From positions 310,001 to 374,000 of the forward strand of contig NZ_CP083582.1 in the NCBI RefSeq assembly GCF_020091585.1: a stretch of DNA of 64,000 bases. The letters run 5' to 3'. The position numbers and the translations under genes are program-made. Position 1 is the first letter of the stretch. The number at the start of each line of letters is the position of its first letter. Below, one piece after another: positions 20,209 to 31,670 of this stretch. The DNA is from Kovacikia minuta CCNUW1 (lineage in GTDB: Bacteria; Cyanobacteriota; Cyanobacteriia; Leptolyngbyales; Leptolyngbyaceae). The notes beneath the pieces were generated by a model. It was not told the origin of the DNA. It saw nothing but the letters and a program-made list of their open reading frames with translations, and did no database searches.

Positions 20209-21358
20209 ATGAGGTTTTCACTCCTGTCTGGTTTGACGCGAAGATCGCTGTTTGGAGCTGGATTTTTAGGAACTGGAGCTTTATTTGGCAGCCTTCTACC
20301 AAAAGCGATTGCGGCACAGAAGCCCAAGGCTCCCGGTCGCCCACTACCCGATAGTACAGGAACATCGGCTCCCCTTGTCATGCATGGTGGTAGTACAACC
20401 ATTGGGGATGTGGATCACGATCGGAATGGGTTTGACCCGCGTGCCATCCTGACTGACTGGGACGCAGGCACGGTTTCAAAACTACCCGATGGGCAAACAT
20501 TACGGGAATATAAAATTACTGTAGAAGAACGGGAAATTGAGATTGCACCGGGTGTTTCCTACCCCGCCCTGGACCTATAACGGTCGGGTTCCCGGTCCAA
20601 CCATTCGCGTCACAGAGGGCGATCGGGTTCGGATTCACTTTTCCAACCAGGGCACCCATCCCCACACCATTCACTTTCATGGCATTCACTCGGTTCGTCA
20701 GGATGGCATTCCAGGCATGCTGGAAGCATTTCCCGGTCAGGAAGTGGTTTATGAATTTGATGCTAAACCTTTTGGCTGCCATCTGTACCATTGCCATTCC
20801 GCCCCATTTAAGCGGCATTTGCATAAAGGACTCTATGGGGCGTTCATTATTGATCCACGTCCAAAACGGTCTCCCAAGTCGAAACGTTACCCAAAGCGGA
20901 AGCAGTATTCAGACGAGGAAAAGGTTGCTCGGTCCCGACTTTTGGGAAGCCCAGAAAATACCCAATGGCAAGAATTTGTCATGGTGATGAATGCGTTTGA
21001 TACTAACTTTGATGAAGAGAACGAGTTCTACGCTATCAATACCGCTCCCCACGAATTTATGAAGCGTCCTATTCGGGTTGAGCGCGATCGCCCTGTGCGA
21101 ATTTATCTCATCAATGTCACTGAATTTGATCTGATTAACTCTCTGCACCTGCACGCCAACTTTTTTAACTATTACGACCAGGGCACCACCCTGACACCAA
21201 CCTTACGGACCGTCGATACCGTCATGCTTTGCCAGGGGCAGCGGGGTATTTTAGAATTTTCTTACCAGAAGCATGAACCAGGGGTGTATATGTTTCATGC
21301 CCATCAGTCAGAATTTGTCGAACTGGGCTGGATGAGTGCATTTGAGGTCGTGGCATGA
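20209..21358 (+). pseudogene. Two-domain multicopper oxidase, frameshifted
   Basis: An exported cupredoxin-type oxidase with a Tat-like N-terminus (TRRSLFGAGFLGTGALFG). Copper-ligand motifs are HTIHFHG, HLYHCHS, LHLHANFF and FHAHQSE. The only ligand-type Cys is in the first domain (HCH); the last motif is HAH without Cys. That matches two-domain oxidases or nitrite-reductase-like proteins rather than three-domain laccases. The frame breaks at 20567-20569, where an extra C turns PAWTYNG into a stop; without it one continuous protein of about 380 residues results. The stop overlaps the start of the ZIP gene (ATGA), so the pair is an operon. Confidence 0.8.
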
Positions 21359-23741: not shown

Positions 23742-24642
23742 ATGGCACCCTATCCGACTGGGATGGGGTACTTGAGGGAGAATCTGATTCCTGAGGTTGG
23801 ACAACATCTGGAAGATAGCGACGTAACCTGTAAAGCCAAACCAAACCCAGCACACCGATCGTAATTCCAACTAAACTGACGACCTGAGCAATTCGCAGCG
23901 GTCCTAACATCAAACTATCGGTGCGTAATCCTTCAATCCAGAAACGACCACAACTATACAGGGCAAGATAGACCAGAAACAGCGTACCTGGCTTGAGCTG
24001 GAATTTGCCCTTTTGTCCCCCCGAAAACAGCCCGATCAACACACCAAATACCATCAAGTCCCAGAGTGACTCGTAGAGAAAGGTCGGGTGAAAATAGGAA
24101 AACCCTTCGTATCCTGGTGGGCGACGTTCTGGCGGAATATACAATTTCCAGGGAAGGTCAGTCGGACGCCCAAATGCTTCTGAGTTAAAAAAGTTTCCCC
24201 ACCGTCCGATCGCCTGTCCCAAAATCAGAGACGGAGCCACCAGATCTGTCAATTGCCAGAAGGGAATTCGTCGGACACGGGCAAAAATTAAAGCTGCAAC
24301 GAGTCCCCCCAAAATTGCCCCATGAATTGCAATGCCACCTTTCCAAATGGCAATAATTTGATCAGGACGCTGGGCATATTCCTGCCATTGAAACAACACG
24401 TAATAAAGCCTTGCCGAGGGAATTGCTGCAACCACCAGCCAGATGGCAAGATCACTGATAATTTCAGGATCAAAATTCCGCTGTTTCGCTAGGGACCGAG
24501 ATAACGTAACACCAATTAACACCGCCGAAGCGATCAGAAAACCATACCAGCGAACCAGGATTGGGCCCCATTCAAACAAAATCGGACCAGGAGACGCGAA
24601 TTGAACCGCCAGGGGTAAATCACCAAGAAACAGCATGGGCAA
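23740..24642 (-). CDS. lgt: Prolipoprotein diacylglyceryl transferase
   Basis: 300 residues, seven membrane helices. It transfers diacylglycerol from phosphatidylglycerol to the lipobox Cys of prolipoproteins, the first step of lipoprotein maturation. The family signature is [13 protein letters not shown], with [16 protein letters not shown] before it and [13 protein letters not shown] after it. Length and topology are normal. Clients encoded in this window probably include the lipobox protease at 14345-15514. Confidence 0.93.
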
Positions 24643-25072
24643 ATTAGAATGAGCAAATCAAAACATGACAACGCCACAAGTACAAGCGCTCTATATTATC
24701 AGTGGTTGATCTATAGTGACCATACCACGACAGTTTGAACGAATCGTGAATCAACAAAGGACAAGCGAACGTGTTGATTGGTTAATGGGTAATGGGTGTA
24801 TCTGCAATGACCCATTGCCCTTTATCACCCACTCCATACTCCTTAAAGTTTAGACTTACGTAAACCCTGCGGGTTTGAACCAGGTATCAAGCATCGCGAT
24901 CAGCAGAGTAGCTTAAACCTCCGAAGTTCTGGTTAAGACACGTAAGCCCAAAAAGTTTGCAAATAAATTTCTCTAAACTCTGAGAACAGGTTAGGGTTGG
25001 GAATCCTAAAAATAAGTCCGCAGGTAATTGGTTGCTTTCACCCCACTGCGATCGCCCAAGAATAAGAGGCTT
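24643..25072. other. Divergent intergenic region
   Basis: Holds the promoter regions of lgt (minus) and the repeat-built protein (plus). A partly palindromic module (taatgggtaatgggtgta ... tgacccattgccc) lies at about 24783-24822. No gene or RNA recognised. Confidence 0.45.
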
Positions 25073-26881
25073 ATGATTCAGGTTCCCCTTCCTTCGGTTG
25101 GTTCATCCCCAGCAGGGCATAAACACACTGAACTGGTGCATTCAGATTACCCGCCGTTTCACTTGGCACCGCTTAGCCAAACCGTTCTTCAAATACCCGA
25201 TCCCTCCTTTCTGAACCATCCCACCGCTGCTTCTGCCCTTTTTCAACCAACTGTTGAGGCAATGCAGCAACTTGTTGCCCTGATCCATACCTTACAGTTG
25301 GCAACGCCTTCGTCCCACGAGCTTGCGTCCCCTGAATCGTTCAATCTCCCGCTTAGCCCCGATCTCCTGATGCCCTACGTCAGTGAGGAAGCATATGAGG
25401 TTGCGGAAGCTTTGCAGCAGGAAAAGGAGCCAGGGGTCAGGAGTCAGGAGTTGGGAGTTGGGGGAGATGGGGAAGATTGCTTGACTTCCCCATCTTCCCT
25501 ATTGTCCCCATCCTCCCCGTCCCCCTATCCTCTTCAGTCCTCACTTCTGACGATCGAAGCGCTGACTTCCTATCTGCTCTGGTCAGTGGTTCGTAGTTCC
25601 TACATCACCATGCAGTTGATTGAGGGCGTCCGCGCTCAGCAGCAGGTAGATGAAACCTGGACACCCGGAATGGTTCGGTTGGCAATCCTACTAATTGTTA
25701 AAACTCCTGAATTGGATACGTGCTTTGACCTGGCAACAGGTTGCCGCCCCCAATCCCTGCTTGCTGAGGACGAAGTTTTGCGATTGGATGATCATGGGTG
25801 GTTCGCAGGACGATCGCCCAGCCTGCCCCATCAATTGGGCGATCGCGTTGAAAACCAACTCCAGGTACTGCTCCAACAAATTCAAGCCACAAATCCTTTT
25901 ATCGCCCCATTGCTGGAAGGGTTATCCCTGCCCCTCCTGCAACCGGGGCAGAACTGGCAAATGGCTGAAATCCGACTCCAGTTGGGGTTTGAGTTTACCG
26001 TTGGGGAAGCAGAATCGATGACTTACCAGACTTCCTACATCCAATCTGACCTGGTTGAAGCTGAATTGCTAGAAGAGACCGCGATCGCGGAAACCAGTTC
26101 CCAGATCTTTTCAGTTGTTGCCCCTGCTTCCCAGGTATCTGTCGTAGAACTGCCTTGCCAACCGTTTAGTACATCAACCCTGGTGCGCCTGAGCGACCCA
26201 GAAACGCTGGAGCGTTATAGCCAAACCCTGACCCATCAGCACACTCTCAGGGCGATCGCCTCCCTGCAACAAAGCCAATTACCCAATGACCCCCATGAGC
26301 ACCTGCTCCACATCATCACTAAAGCCGATGAGATCGTCCACGGCACCCATCCAATCAGTGCCTCAGGAATTTATCTTCAGCAGCCAATCCGGTTAATGCA
26401 GGAGTTGATGCCCAAACTGCTATGGCAAATTACCCGCAGTTCCTATGAAGTGATGCAACTCATGGGAGGGGTTGAAGTATCTATTCTGCAACCGGGGTTC
26501 CACTGGCAACAAGGCACCCTTCGATTACTGCCAGCTTTATGGTTTCAGGCATCTAGCGTTAATTGTGCGATCGACCTTGCGACAGGAAGAGTTGTTCTGT
26601 CTCCAAATGAGTTTTTGCCACCTGAAACTGTTTGCCAAATCAAAATTTCTCCAGCATCCAAAATTCCTCTTCAACCGAGCCAGTTCCAGCATCCCCTTCT
26701 GGTTGAGGAACTACTCTCCTTAATCAAGCAACAAATTTACAAAGCCACACCTGAAATTTACCTGTGGATGGATGGAACTCCAGTAGAATGGCTCCAAGGT
26801 AGACAAGATTGGAAAGAGGGAACCCTACACCTCAAATTGGGTCTGGAGTTCATGCCTGATGTACACCTATGCCTTTCTTAA
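25073..26881 (+). CDS. Unknown protein built from four related repeats, upstream of gvpL/F
   Basis: About 602 residues, no recognised family. Two long modules each contain a pair of related units. The first of each pair carries RSSYITMQLIEGV or RSSYEVMQLMGGV and ends CFDLATG or CAIDLATG. The second of each pair carries LLQPGQNWQMAEIRLQLGFEF or the like (WKEGTLHLKLGLEF). All four share a PGxxWxxGxxRL core. A low-complexity segment encoded by a repeat tract (25427-25554) interrupts the first module. The stop overlaps the GvpL/F start by 23 bp, so the two are co-translated. ATG at 25073 has a GAGG site; a TTG at 25028 is the alternative. Confidence 0.7.
   Translation: MIQVPLPSVGSSPAGHKHTELVHSDYPPFHLAPLSQTVLQIPDPSFLNHPTAASALFQPTVEAMQQLVALIHTLQLATPSSHELASPESFNLPLSPDLLMPYVSEEAYEVAEALQQEKEPGVRSQELGVGGDGEDCLTSPSSLLSPSSPSPYPLQSSLLTIEALTSYLLWSVVRSSYITMQLIEGVRAQQQVDETWTPGMVRLAILLIVKTPELDTCFDLATGCRPQSLLAEDEVLRLDDHGWFAGRSPSLPHQLGDRVENQLQVLLQQIQATNPFIAPLLEGLSLPLLQPGQNWQMAEIRLQLGFEFTVGEAESMTYQTSYIQSDLVEAELLEETAIAETSSQIFSVVAPASQVSVVELPCQPFSTSTLVRLSDPETLERYSQTLTHQHTLRAIASLQQSQLPNDPHEHLLHIITKADEIVHGTHPISASGIYLQQPIRLMQELMPKLLWQITRSSYEVMQLMGGVEVSILQPGFHWQQGTLRLLPALWFQASSVNCAIDLATGRVVLSPNEFLPPETVCQIKISPASKIPLQPSQFQHPLLVEELLSLIKQQIYKATPEIYLWMDGTPVEWLQGRQDWKEGTLHLKLGLEFMPDVHLCLS
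25427..25554. repeat. Repeat tract inserted in frame in the 602-residue protein
   Basis: Contains caggagt heptamers, then a gatggggaag / cttccccatc inverted pair and ccccatc/ccccgtc units. It encodes about 42 residues of low complexity (for example SPSSLLSPSSPSPYPLQSS) and keeps the frame open. Confidence 0.75.
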
Positions 26882-27530
26882 AACCCCTGCTGAGCCGCTG
26901 GAACTCCCAATTGGAATAGAGAATCCAGTGCAAGTGGTTAATCAGAATGGAATTGCTGCGGTGGTTGAGCCAGATTTGATTTTGGATGGGCTGAGAGATG
27001 ATACAGCTTTGATGCAGGCCGTACTGTCCCACGATCGGGTAATTCGCGAGCTATTTTTGCAAACAACCATCCTGCCACTACGGTTTGGTACCAGTTTTAT
27101 TTCTTTACAGGGGTTGCTAACCCATTTGGATGCAAATCAGCCAACCTATTTAGAAAAACTGACTCAATTTGAAGGAAAAGCCGAATACCCGCTTAAATTT
27201 ATTCCCCTGAGTTTACCGGAAATCCCAATCTCATCTGAGATGAAGGGAAAAGAATACTTCCTGGCAAAGAAAAACCAGTACCAAACCCAGTTAGAACATC
27301 AAAAACAGCAGCAAGATGAGGTTAATGCCACTCTTCGCATGATTGCCCAAGCCTATTCCCAATTTGTTACCAGTGAAGCCCAATCTGAGGTTGAAACCAT
27401 CTACCTACTCAGCGATCGCCAGAAAGAATCTCAGCTTCATCAAGCTTTTCGAATCTGGCAGGAGCAGTGCCCTAGCTGGCAAATGACGTTAGGAGAAGCC
27501 CTACCTCCCTATCATTTTCTGTCAGACTAG
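26859..27530 (+). CDS. GvpL/GvpF family gas-vesicle-type protein
   Basis: 223 residues. The start MYTYAFLKTP, the segment LPLRFGTSF and the C-terminal half with LSDRQKESQLHQAF identify the GvpL/F family, accessory proteins of gas vesicle assembly that contact GvpA. No gvpA or other gvp gene is visible in the window. The only partner is the unknown repeat protein that overlaps it. Lone GvpL/F genes occur in cyanobacteria without gas vesicles, so its role here is uncertain. Confidence 0.85.
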   Translation: MYTYAFLKTPAEPLELPIGIENPVQVVNQNGIAAVVEPDLILDGLRDDTALMQAVLSHDRVIRELFLQTTILPLRFGTSFISLQGLLTHLDANQPTYLEKLTQFEGKAEYPLKFIPLSLPEIPISSEMKGKEYFLAKKNQYQTQLEHQKQQQDEVNATLRMIAQAYSQFVTSEAQSEVETIYLLSDRQKESQLHQAFRIWQEQCPSWQMTLGEALPPYHFLSD

Positions 27531-27592
27531 CAGAAAAAACCTCTTATTTCCTGAAATCCCCACCAGCCTGAAAATAGAACCTAAATCAAGCC

Positions 27593-28042
27593 CTAAACAA
27601 CCAGGGGCTGCCTTGAGACATCACGAACTCGTTTAGAAAGCCTTAACTCAGTTCCCTGCGAGTTCCATTGAACCTGGTCAAAGATTTGATGGAGGATATA
27701 CATTCCACGCCCACATTCTCTCTCATCGCAGGGCAATTGCCTACTCTGACCAATCTCACAATCATGGCTGGGTCTAAACCCACCTCCCTGATCCGAGATA
27801 ATCCACCAATAATGATTCGCTACTGAAGAAAATCGAACCAAAACCGTCTTACTGGGGTCTAAATTATTACCGTGCTTAGCAGCGTTAACAAGTGCTTCCT
27901 GAAGCCCCAACCGAACCTCCGCTCTCCAACCGGGGGGGATTTCAGCGAGCAAAAGATCCAAAATTGGGATCAAATATAGGGTGGAAGCAAAACTAATCGT
28001 ATTCCAATGGCGTCTAACGGGACGAGACGAGACAGCAATCAC
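27593..28042 (-). CDS. Anti-sigma-factor type histidine-kinase-like ATPase
   Basis: 149 residues containing only a GHKL ATP-binding domain. N-box is EALVNAAKHGN, G1 is DQGGGF and G2 is GRGMYIL, the spacing seen in RsbW/SpoIIAB-like anti-sigma or switch kinases. There is no phosphoacceptor or sensor domain. Partners (anti-sigma antagonist, phosphatase) are not nearby. It probably controls a stress or motility switch by binding a partner in an ATP-dependent way. Confidence 0.85.
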   Translation of the reverse strand: MIAVSSRPVRRHWNTISFASTLYLIPILDLLLAEIPPGWRAEVRLGLQEALVNAAKHGNNLDPSKTVLVRFSSVANHYWWIISDQGGGFRPSHDCEIGQSRQLPCDERECGRGMYILHQIFDQVQWNSQGTELRLSKRVRDVSRQPLVV

Positions 28043-29396: not shown

Positions 29397-29996
29397 CTAA
29401 GAGGTCGGTGCCATCTCAATGACGCTATCAATTAAGCCGTAGTCCTTTGCTTCCTGAGCTGACATGAAGAAGTCGCGATCAGTGTCCCGCTCAATCTTTT
29501 CAAGGGGTTGCTCGGTCATTTTTGCCATGATCTCGTTGAGCTGTTTGCGCACTCGCAGGATCTCGGCAGCCTCAATCTGAATATCCGTTGCCTGACCACG
29601 CGTTCCCCCCAGGGGTTGGTGAATCATGATGCGGGCGTGGGGCAGGGCAAGCCGTTTGCCTTTGCTACCAGCGGATAACAAAAAAGCACCCATTGACGCA
29701 GCCAGTCCCACGCAAATGGTTACCACCTCTGACTTAATGTGTTGAATGGTGTCATAAATTGCCATTCCCGCTGTGACCGAACCACCTGGCGAATTGATGT
29801 AAAGATAGATCGGCTTTGAGGAGTCGTCGGAATCGAGATAGAGCAGATAGGCGACGATCGCATTGGCGATTCCATCATCAACTTCTTCTGCCAGAAAAAT
29901 AATGCGCTCCCGAAATAGCCGCTCGTAGATGCTAATCCACTGCTCGTAGGGGCTACCGGGAAGGCGGTAGGGAACACTGGGAATACCAATGGGCAT
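29397..29996 (-). CDS. clpP: ClpP protease subunit, catalytically complete
   Basis: 199 residues. The catalytic Ser is in [14 protein letters not shown], His in MIHQPLGG and Asp in the DTDRDFF segment. The glycine-rich oxyanion loop [15 protein letters not shown] is intact. With ClpC/ClpX ATPases it forms the barrel that degrades unfolded proteins in the cytoplasm. It is the last of three clpP-type genes in a row, separated from the middle one by about 200 bp of short repeats. Confidence 0.92.
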
Positions 29997-30002
29997 GGGA
30001 GG

Positions 30003-30193
30003 ACTCCTTGTTTGAAGGATAAAGGATAAGGGATGAAGGATAAAAGAGAGGGGGATAAAAGGGTAGAAGGTGATGAGGTGATGGGAGGGGGGGAGGGGGA
30101 GAATGGGGGGAGGGGGTAGAAGACTGGGGGATAAGGAGATAATTTTTATCTTTTATCCTTTATCCTTTCCCTAGCACCTACCACCTACCACCT
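30003..30193. repeat. Compound short-repeat tract between clpP genes
   Basis: Units of aaggata, ggggag, atccttt and ccaccta fill the whole gap. The tract occurs between two genes that probably share a transcript. Confidence 0.8.
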
Positions 30194-30194
30194 G

Positions 30195-30860
30195 TCACCT
30201 AGCCGCGATCGCGGTTGGCAATTCCTTTGTACTGGACAGAACATGATCCACAAGTCCGTATTCTTTTGCTTCCTCTGGGGTCATATAGAACATCCGATCA
30301 GTATCTTTATGGATTCTTTCGATCGGTTGTCCGGTATTTTTAGCAAAGATATCAAGTAGCAAAGCTCGTTTAGAAAGGACTTCTTCAGCATTGATTTGAA
30401 TATCCGTTGCTTGCCCTTGAGTGCCAATTCGGGGATGATGGAGCGCAATCATTGCGTGCGGGAGACTGGCTCGCTTGCCTTTGGTTCCCGATGAGAGCAA
30501 CAGTGCAGCCATACTAATGGCTTGCCCCAAACAGATTGTGACAATTTCTGATTTGATGTGCTGCATCGTATCGTAAATTGCCAGTGTGGCTGAAATTGCC
30601 ATCATGCCAACGGATTCGTTCGCCATGCCAGCAGAGACTGGATCGCCAAGCGAATTGATGTACAGGTAAATTGGCTTGTTCTGATCTTCCGAGTCTAAAT
30701 ACAGCATGGCTGAAATCAAAGAGTTCGCCAAACCCATTGAGACGGGTTGATTCAGAAAAATGATCCGTTCCTGGCTCAGGCGAGTATAGATGCTGATCCA
30801 TTGCCAGTAGGGACTGCCAGGAACGTTGTAGGGAACGCGGAGAATCTCATCAACAGACAT
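30195..30860 (-). CDS. ClpP-like subunit with an insertion in the oxyanion loop
   Basis: 221 residues, clearly ClpP family. Ser ([14 protein letters not shown]) and His (IALHHPRIG) are present. The usual [14 protein letters not shown] is replaced by [20 protein letters not shown] and then [11 protein letters not shown], a 13-residue insertion that also removes one of the two loop glycines. Such a subunit may have low or altered activity and may serve mainly to shape a mixed ring. It is flanked by clpR upstream and a standard clpP downstream. Confidence 0.85.
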
Positions 30861-30977
30861 AAGGGTAAGAGAGTTATGAATTACGAATTATGAATTACGA
30901 ACTACGAGTTTGTAGGAATTGAGAGGTTGGTTTCTTGATGGTCAATTCCTAGTTCTCAATTCTTAATTCTGAATTCC

Positions 30978-31670
30978 CTAAGCAATGGCTGGAATGGGTT
31001 TGGGTAGATCTTTGGTGCTTTCGAGGACACGATCGATCAGCCCATATTCCTTGGCTTGATCTGGCGTGAGATAGAACATGCGATCGGTATCTTTGGCAAT
31101 TTTTTCGGCCAGTTGTCCGGTATTTCTGGAAAGAATATCGAGCATTGCGGCTTTATTTTCCAGCACCTCTTTGGCTCGAATCTGAATATCCGTCGCCTGA
31201 CTGCGACCCATGCCAACACGCGGTTGATTAAGAACGATCGTTGCATGGGGCAGGCTGGCTCGAAAGCCTTTTGTGCCCGCAGAAAGGATCATGGCAGCAG
31301 TGCCCATTGCCTGACCCAGGCAGATCGTATGGACCGGAGGTTTGATGTAGTTAATCGTGTCGCAAATGGCGAAGGCTTCCGTATCTTGACCGATCGCATC
31401 TCCGGTATACCAGGAAGTTCCTGTGGAGTTGATATAGAAAAAGATGGGTTTTTCTGGGTCGGCAAACTGCAAATACAGGAGTTGGGCAATAATCAGCTTC
31501 GTGACATCGACCCCAAGCTGGCGCTTAAAATCATCCGAGGAAACGAGGGGCAATCCCAAATAAATGATCCGTTCCTTCAACAATAGGGAAGGAAGGTCGG
31601 GGGGTGGGGTTCGGTAGAAGGAATCTCCACCATAGTAAGGAGATTGAACAGCTTTAATCGATGAACTCAT
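30978..31670 (-). CDS. clpR: ClpR, non-catalytic Clp subunit
   Basis: 230 residues. The region that holds the catalytic Ser reads GQAMGTAAMILSAG, and the His position reads IVLNQPRVG, so two triad residues are missing. This identifies ClpR, the inactive subunit that shares a ring with ClpP in cyanobacteria and chloroplasts. The N-terminus YYGGDSFYRTPPPDLPSLLL is typical. First gene of the three-gene cluster, divergent from the VWA gene. Confidence 0.88.
   Translation of the reverse strand: MSSSIKAVQSPYYGGDSFYRTPPPDLPSLLLKERIIYLGLPLVSSDDFKRQLGVDVTKLIIAQLLYLQFADPEKPIFFYINSTGTSWYTGDAIGQDTEAFAICDTINYIKPPVHTICLGQAMGTAAMILSAGTKGFRASLPHATIVLNQPRVGMGRSQATDIQIRAKEVLENKAAMLDILSRNTGQLAEKIAKDTDRMFYLTPDQAKEYGLIDRVLESTKDLPKPIPAIA

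Follow-up and report, generated by a model that had tools for sequence, protein, structure and literature searches.

The window analysed here is a stretch of 64,000 nucleotides (C1:310001-374000) from an 8.56 Mb genome in three contigs, whose relatives are Leptolyngbyaceae-type cyanobacteria. It contains two forward-strand genes that share 23 bp (26859-26881). The first encodes a 602-residue protein built from repeats and the second a protein of the GvpL/F family, and the overlap between them was confirmed as the sequence-only reading had described it. The open frame that contains the repeat gene starts at a TTG at position 25028. Upstream of the pair, on the opposite strand, lie two genes that we take from their sequence to be cobM-like and lgt-like, and the gene downstream of the pair is convergent. 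An Rfam scan of 24500-27700 returned zero matches, and in a promoter and terminator scan at the locus the real sequence scored no better than shuffles. The features at the locus are as follows.

25073..26881, + strand: repeat-protein gene, 602 aa; MazG-half N-terminus and four KGK-related units
25241..25456, + strand: first half of a MazG domain, residues 57-128; helix pair, EExxE/D kept, second half absent
25541..25750, + strand: unit A1, residues 157-226; helix-helix-strands with a DLATG end, AlphaFold2 pLDDT ~84-93
25838..26008, + strand: unit B1, residues 256-312; KGK-like
26051..26077, + strand: linker motif LVEAELLEE, residues 327-335; short and acidic
26384..26596, + strand: unit A2, residues 438-508
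26693..26863, + strand: unit B2, residues 541-597; matched best by Pfam KGK (PF08872) over residues 564-596
26859..27530, + strand: GvpL/F ORF, assigned below as gvpW, 223 aa; second GvpL/F paralogue

The GvpL/F protein matches PF06386 over residues 1-221 with 113 bits against a cut-off of 23.6. In the genome-level search the gene scored 111.8 bits versus 222.3 for the gvpF of the same genome. Most PF06386-carrying genomes of the phylum sample have one strong match (~180-238 bits) and one weak match (~73-142 bits), and the window gene belongs with the weak ones. In those canonical clusters that were inspected, the strong gene is gvpF; gvpG, a gvpV-type gene and the weak PF06386 gene come after it in that order, with gvpV on the opposite strand between gvpG and gvpW. 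In Anabaena, the genes downstream of gvpG are called gvpV and gvpW in PMC7204071, which also reports a GvpF structure. A tree of 76 GvpL/F proteins placed the window gene in a 51-row clade with the genes at the canonical gvpW position, separate from a 25-row GvpF clade that includes the GvpF of its own genome (support 100/100); of this analysis the topology is used and not the group statistics of the labelled rows, as the labelling rule had tagged seven GvpF rows as W. The AlphaFold2 model (pLDDT 89.9) has the two alpha+beta domains of GvpF, and Foldseek matched it to the GvpF structures 4qsg and 6l5d at E 9e-9 each, with TM 0.72-0.75 on the query. A PDB sequence search with the single protein found nothing; a nine-row GvpL/F profile found 4qsg at E 0.0003.

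Because of these profile scores, the tree and the predicted structure, we identify the window protein as GvpW, which is the second GvpL/F paralogue that the gas-vesicle gene sets of cyanobacteria contain. The window gene does not follow gvpG and gvpV in a gvp cluster, and since the position of gvpW varies across the whole order, we treated it as context and not as a defining feature. Compared with the GvpW of Anabaena and Microcystis (PMC7204071), it shares PF06386, a length of 223 aa, the GvpF fold and the clade, but differs in lying outside a gvp cluster and in being paired with a repeat gene. PMC5259702 describes one Planktothrix strain without gvpW whose aerotopes looked normal.

Turning to the repeat protein, an alignment of 22 family members gave the order of its parts. 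The N-terminal region is followed by the first A-B pair and then by a linker bearing the acidic motif (14 of the 22 have an LVEAELLEE-like motif, by a loose pattern); a helical stretch leads on to the second A-B pair. Profile-profile comparison of the unit sub-alignments matched A1 with A2 at E 4.6e-32 (score 150) and B1 with B2 at E 2.4e-21 (score 92). Three of the four comparisons between A and B units gave E 9e-10 to 6e-11, and for the fourth, A1 with B1, E was 5.7e-6 (score 29.8). Controls with shuffled columns, which covered four of the six unit pairs, scored at most 16.8 compared with the observed 29.8-150, so by profile comparison all four units are mutually related. This supports the two A-B pairs with internal repeats of the sequence-only reading. 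Its two LATG-ended units also exist, but they are the two A units and not separate elements.

The repeat protein as a whole matches the KGK family (PF08872) with 42.5 bits at a cut-off of 25.6, as do 21 of the 22 family members at E ≤ 0.01. A hairpin of the PGxxWxxGxxRL type is common to the repeat units and KGK proteins. The similarity of the B units to single KGK proteins exceeds that of shuffled controls, and the A units show it only weakly. KGK proteins are usually ~120 aa long (PMC5827413), and the one in the same genome has 137 aa, whereas the repeat protein has four related units. The same paper calls KGK an enigmatic, possible protein-protein interaction domain encoded beside a clade of dynamin-like proteins. 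AlphaFold2 predicted one plan for all four units, two helices and a hairpin, at pLDDT ~84-93. The mean pLDDT of the model is a middling 65, with most of residues 1-155 below 60. Searches with this model returned no fold match in support of a binding role: the best Foldseek E was 0.35, and VIA-align gave Z ≤ 5.4, with rows mainly on the helices at 373-438 and the units barely covered. Divergence of the repeat gene was highest at third codon positions, then first, then second, in all four pairs compared, and the gene thus appears to evolve as under purifying selection.

The N-terminal region aligns with MazG. Pfam MazG scored the window protein at 19.5 bits, under its cut-off of 22; the 22-member family profile matched residues 6-53 of E. 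coli MazG (3crc) at E 7.7e-8. NCBIfam MazG models were matched over their first ~40-56 positions only, and YabN and the longer NCBIfam MazG models were matched over the corresponding stretch. The family had been taken as unknown, which is only partly right in view of this N-terminus and the KGK-matching B units. A complete MazG enzyme domain has an EExxE and a downstream ExxD motif. In the repeat protein the first helix pair of this NTP pyrophosphohydrolase is the part that aligns; the second half, which would complete the active site, is absent, and KGK units are fused on instead. The repeat protein would therefore be non-enzymatic, MazG activity probably having been lost. A separate MazG-like frame occurs in the same genome at C1:4440751.

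The remaining gas-vesicle genes of this genome were found far from the window. All three matches to PF00741 (gvpA-type) in the genome are at 5.77 Mb, and the profile search found no gvpA-type gene inside the 64-kb window, in agreement with the earlier statement that no gvpA is nearby. At 5.77 Mb there are gvpA, gvpN, gvpJ and a gvpK whose C-terminal part is gvpA-like, together with what we presume from its position to be gvpC. The genes gvpF and gvpG lie at 1.14 Mb, a gvpV relative at 6.75 Mb, and gvpW with the repeat gene at 0.336-0.337 Mb. The gvp set is thus complete but scattered over the chromosome, which explains the 'lone' GvpL/F gene: lone in the window, it belongs to a genome whose three further gvp sites carry gvpA, N, J, K, F, G and V. 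The genome search that the sequence-only reading had proposed as a check accordingly found a gvpA cluster elsewhere, at 5.77 Mb. At that site the probable GvpC (L009:7666-8670) and GvpN (L009:8775-10109) share a winged-helix-like C-terminal piece; Pfam TrmB scores the former at 22.8 bits, under the cut-off, and gvp-cluster ORFs of many other loci have similar ends.

Two relations to other Gvp proteins were considered and rejected. GvpV of cyanobacteria is likewise a gas-vesicle accessory and is encoded near gvpW in some genomes, but it is a coiled-coil-like protein of ~105 residues, unrelated in sequence to the repeat protein and separately present in this genome; the repeat protein is therefore not an enlarged GvpV. 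The name GvpV is supported by a primer printed in PMC13274054, which reads as the YKMVTE stretch of that family. Nor does the repeat protein substitute for GvpG or GvpV, as 18 of the 19 genomes of the order with the repeat gene, this one included, have both a GvpG scoring over the cut-off and a strong match to GvpV; the one that departs on both counts (G036) is a fragmented draft.

The distribution of the repeat protein falls within that of gvpA. Within the order sample the full protein is encoded in 19 of 42 genomes, comprising 19/34 with gvpA versus 0/8 without (Fisher 0.004, uncorrected for phylogeny). The phylum sample of 386 genomes yielded 12-13/56 with gvpA versus 0/330 without (Fisher 3e-11 to 3e-12, likewise uncorrected), where the count comprises 12 full-length or near-full proteins and one partial (G268; the A1-B1 part only, in a 227-aa frame). 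Scoring in this sample took up to three candidates per genome, with places listed down to E 3.6e-12, and among the matches listed most of the 246 matching genomes match the MazG part only. PF06386 is found in 56/386 genomes and gvpA in 56/386, and these are the identical genomes. A related repeat protein is encoded at named loci of, among others, Pantanalinema, Tildeniella, Stenomitos, Lyngbya and Leptolyngbya. In both samples the repeat protein occurs only with gvpA, as would be expected of a gas-vesicle accessory gene, and its association with gas vesicles is well supported. The pair itself very probably belongs to gas-vesicle biogenesis. As 15/34 gvpA genomes of the order and ~43/56 of the phylum have no repeat protein, gas vesicles do not in general depend on it.

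This patchiness among gas-vesicle makers would suit a regulator better than a core part. The repeat protein might be a regulator or environmental sensor of gas-vesicle production that keeps GvpW inactive until needed, with its MazG relic reading nucleotides; the EExxE/D of MazG is kept in 21 of the 22 family members, by a loose pattern. We regard this as unlikely. With only the first half of MazG present and a low-confidence model in that region, nucleotide binding is doubtful, and domain searches found no DNA-binding or signalling domain in the repeat protein.

It is more improbable still that the pair serves a structure other than a gas vesicle, with the repeat protein recruiting GvpL/F to another shell or membrane. 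The distance of the pair from gvpA, the occurrence of KGK proteins beside dynamin-like membrane proteins (PMC5827413) and two genomes (G017 and G030) that keep gvpW- and gvpV-type genes without gvpA would be in keeping with such a role. However, the absence of the repeat protein from every gvpA-less genome of both samples speaks against it, the repeat gene is missing from those two genomes as well, and distance means little in a genome that has gvpF/gvpG and the gvpV family at scattered places too. The gvpW- and gvpV-type genes of G017 and G030, in which no gvpA match was found, are either remnants or a second use of GvpW and GvpV.

Gene order among relatives links the repeat gene to gvpW. In 14 of the 19 order genomes it immediately precedes gvpW, both being on one strand (G000, G002, G003, G004, G024, G025, G032 and G033-G039). 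Three others (G012, G013 and G028) have it ~2 kb from gvpW and divergent, with lgt- and cobM-like genes between the two in G028, and in G015 and G040 it is elsewhere, not beside gvpW. Outside the order the two are adjacent and collinear in 6/11 genomes (G294, G301, G325, G254, G049 and G068) and not adjacent in 5/11 (G169, G052, G252, G210 and G268), the last having only part of the repeat gene and lacking a second GvpL/F. A run of three genes on one strand, gvpV relative, repeat gene and gvpW, is found in G032, where ~420 bp separate the gvpV relative from the repeat gene. Stop-to-start distances in the 14 collinear pairs of the order are -23 in the window, -1 in six that belong to one genus, and +2 to +195 in seven. 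Conservation of the overlap had been proposed as a check, and it is the adjacency that is conserved; overlap is seen in 7/14 collinear pairs, six of them from that one genus. The sequence-only reading was to be abandoned if a gvpA cluster of normal composition lay elsewhere and the overlap was not conserved; the cluster exists, and the overlap is only partly conserved. It is improbable that the repeat gene does something unrelated and just happens to neighbour a displaced gvpW: the genes are unlinked or the second GvpL/F is missing in 7/30 genomes, but adjacency recurs in several family-level groups (f1, f4, f8, f11, f23 and f29) and the repeat gene is confined to gvpA genomes even where it is apart from gvpW.

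The repeat gene also appears to go with a gvpW displaced from gvpF, which we treat as a lead. In the phylum sample, 10 of the 20 genomes with gvpW apart from gvpF have the repeat gene, versus 2 of the 34 with gvpW near gvpF (Fisher 0.0003, from sorting by hand, uncorrected for phylogeny and with G197 and G268, which have no second GvpL/F, dropped).

To our knowledge, it is not yet understood how gas vesicles are nucleated and assembled, nor why two GvpL/F proteins should be needed. Our preferred reading, to which we give a probability of roughly 0.6, is that the pair is an outlying part of the gvp set in which the repeat protein acts as a non-enzymatic KGK-repeat adaptor working with GvpW in vesicle assembly. 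The repeat protein would be made together with GvpW, its KGK units would bind GvpW and perhaps other Gvp proteins, and it would hold or deliver these during vesicle nucleation or assembly; the MazG half may serve as a helical docking or oligomerisation piece, not as an enzyme. We infer this adaptor or scaffold mechanism, with its co-translation and physical binding, from the architecture of the protein, the linkage to gvpW and the role suggested for KGK. Of the sequence-only reading, a scaffold or adaptor role agrees with these results, and the two genes do form a conserved pair. Recruitment of GvpL/F to another shell or membrane structure is not supported, given the full gvp set elsewhere in the genome and the gvpA-only occurrence.

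Our literature search found no paper linking KGK or MazG to gas-vesicle assembly, and the repeat protein is apparently undescribed in print. A bolder extension, which we put forward tentatively and consider somewhat less probable than its negation, is that it represents a class of gas-vesicle assembly factor not described before, in which half of a housekeeping MazG is joined to four KGK-type units. It would form a translational pair with GvpW and take over the ordering of assembly in those cyanobacteria where the gvp cluster broke up. If so, and considering its link with dynamin-like proteins, KGK would be an adaptor domain of general use in machines that remodel protein shells and membranes. 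A gvpA-confined protein repeatedly linked to one GvpL/F gene offers a handle on GvpW, and the KGK domain gains a candidate process besides the dynamin-like link. The repeat protein is also a possible added part for gas-vesicle expression systems used in ultrasound imaging.

Several minor observations were made at related loci. In G019, G020 and G027 (L108, L109 and L114) an lpxB-like gene, not the repeat gene, precedes gvpW, with a 32-bp overlap in two of them. The repeat gene of G068 (L123:1519-3038, - strand) is broken up into two ORFs, 378 and 128 aa long, that overlap by 4 bp, the second being the A2-B2 pair alone. In G165 an AAA-ATPase-like gene of 611 aa (L136:1795-3630, - strand) separates gvpF from gvpW, and G301 has two gvpW-type genes (contigs C148 and C206), one beside gvpF and the other beside the repeat gene. 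Within the window, a multicopper-oxidase-like gene at 20209-21358 (+ strand) is found in two frames, 20209-20580 and 20537-21358, and looks like a single gene with a frameshift near 20560, from sequencing error or decay. Three consecutive ClpP-like genes of 199, 221 and 230 aa occupy 29397-31670 on the - strand.
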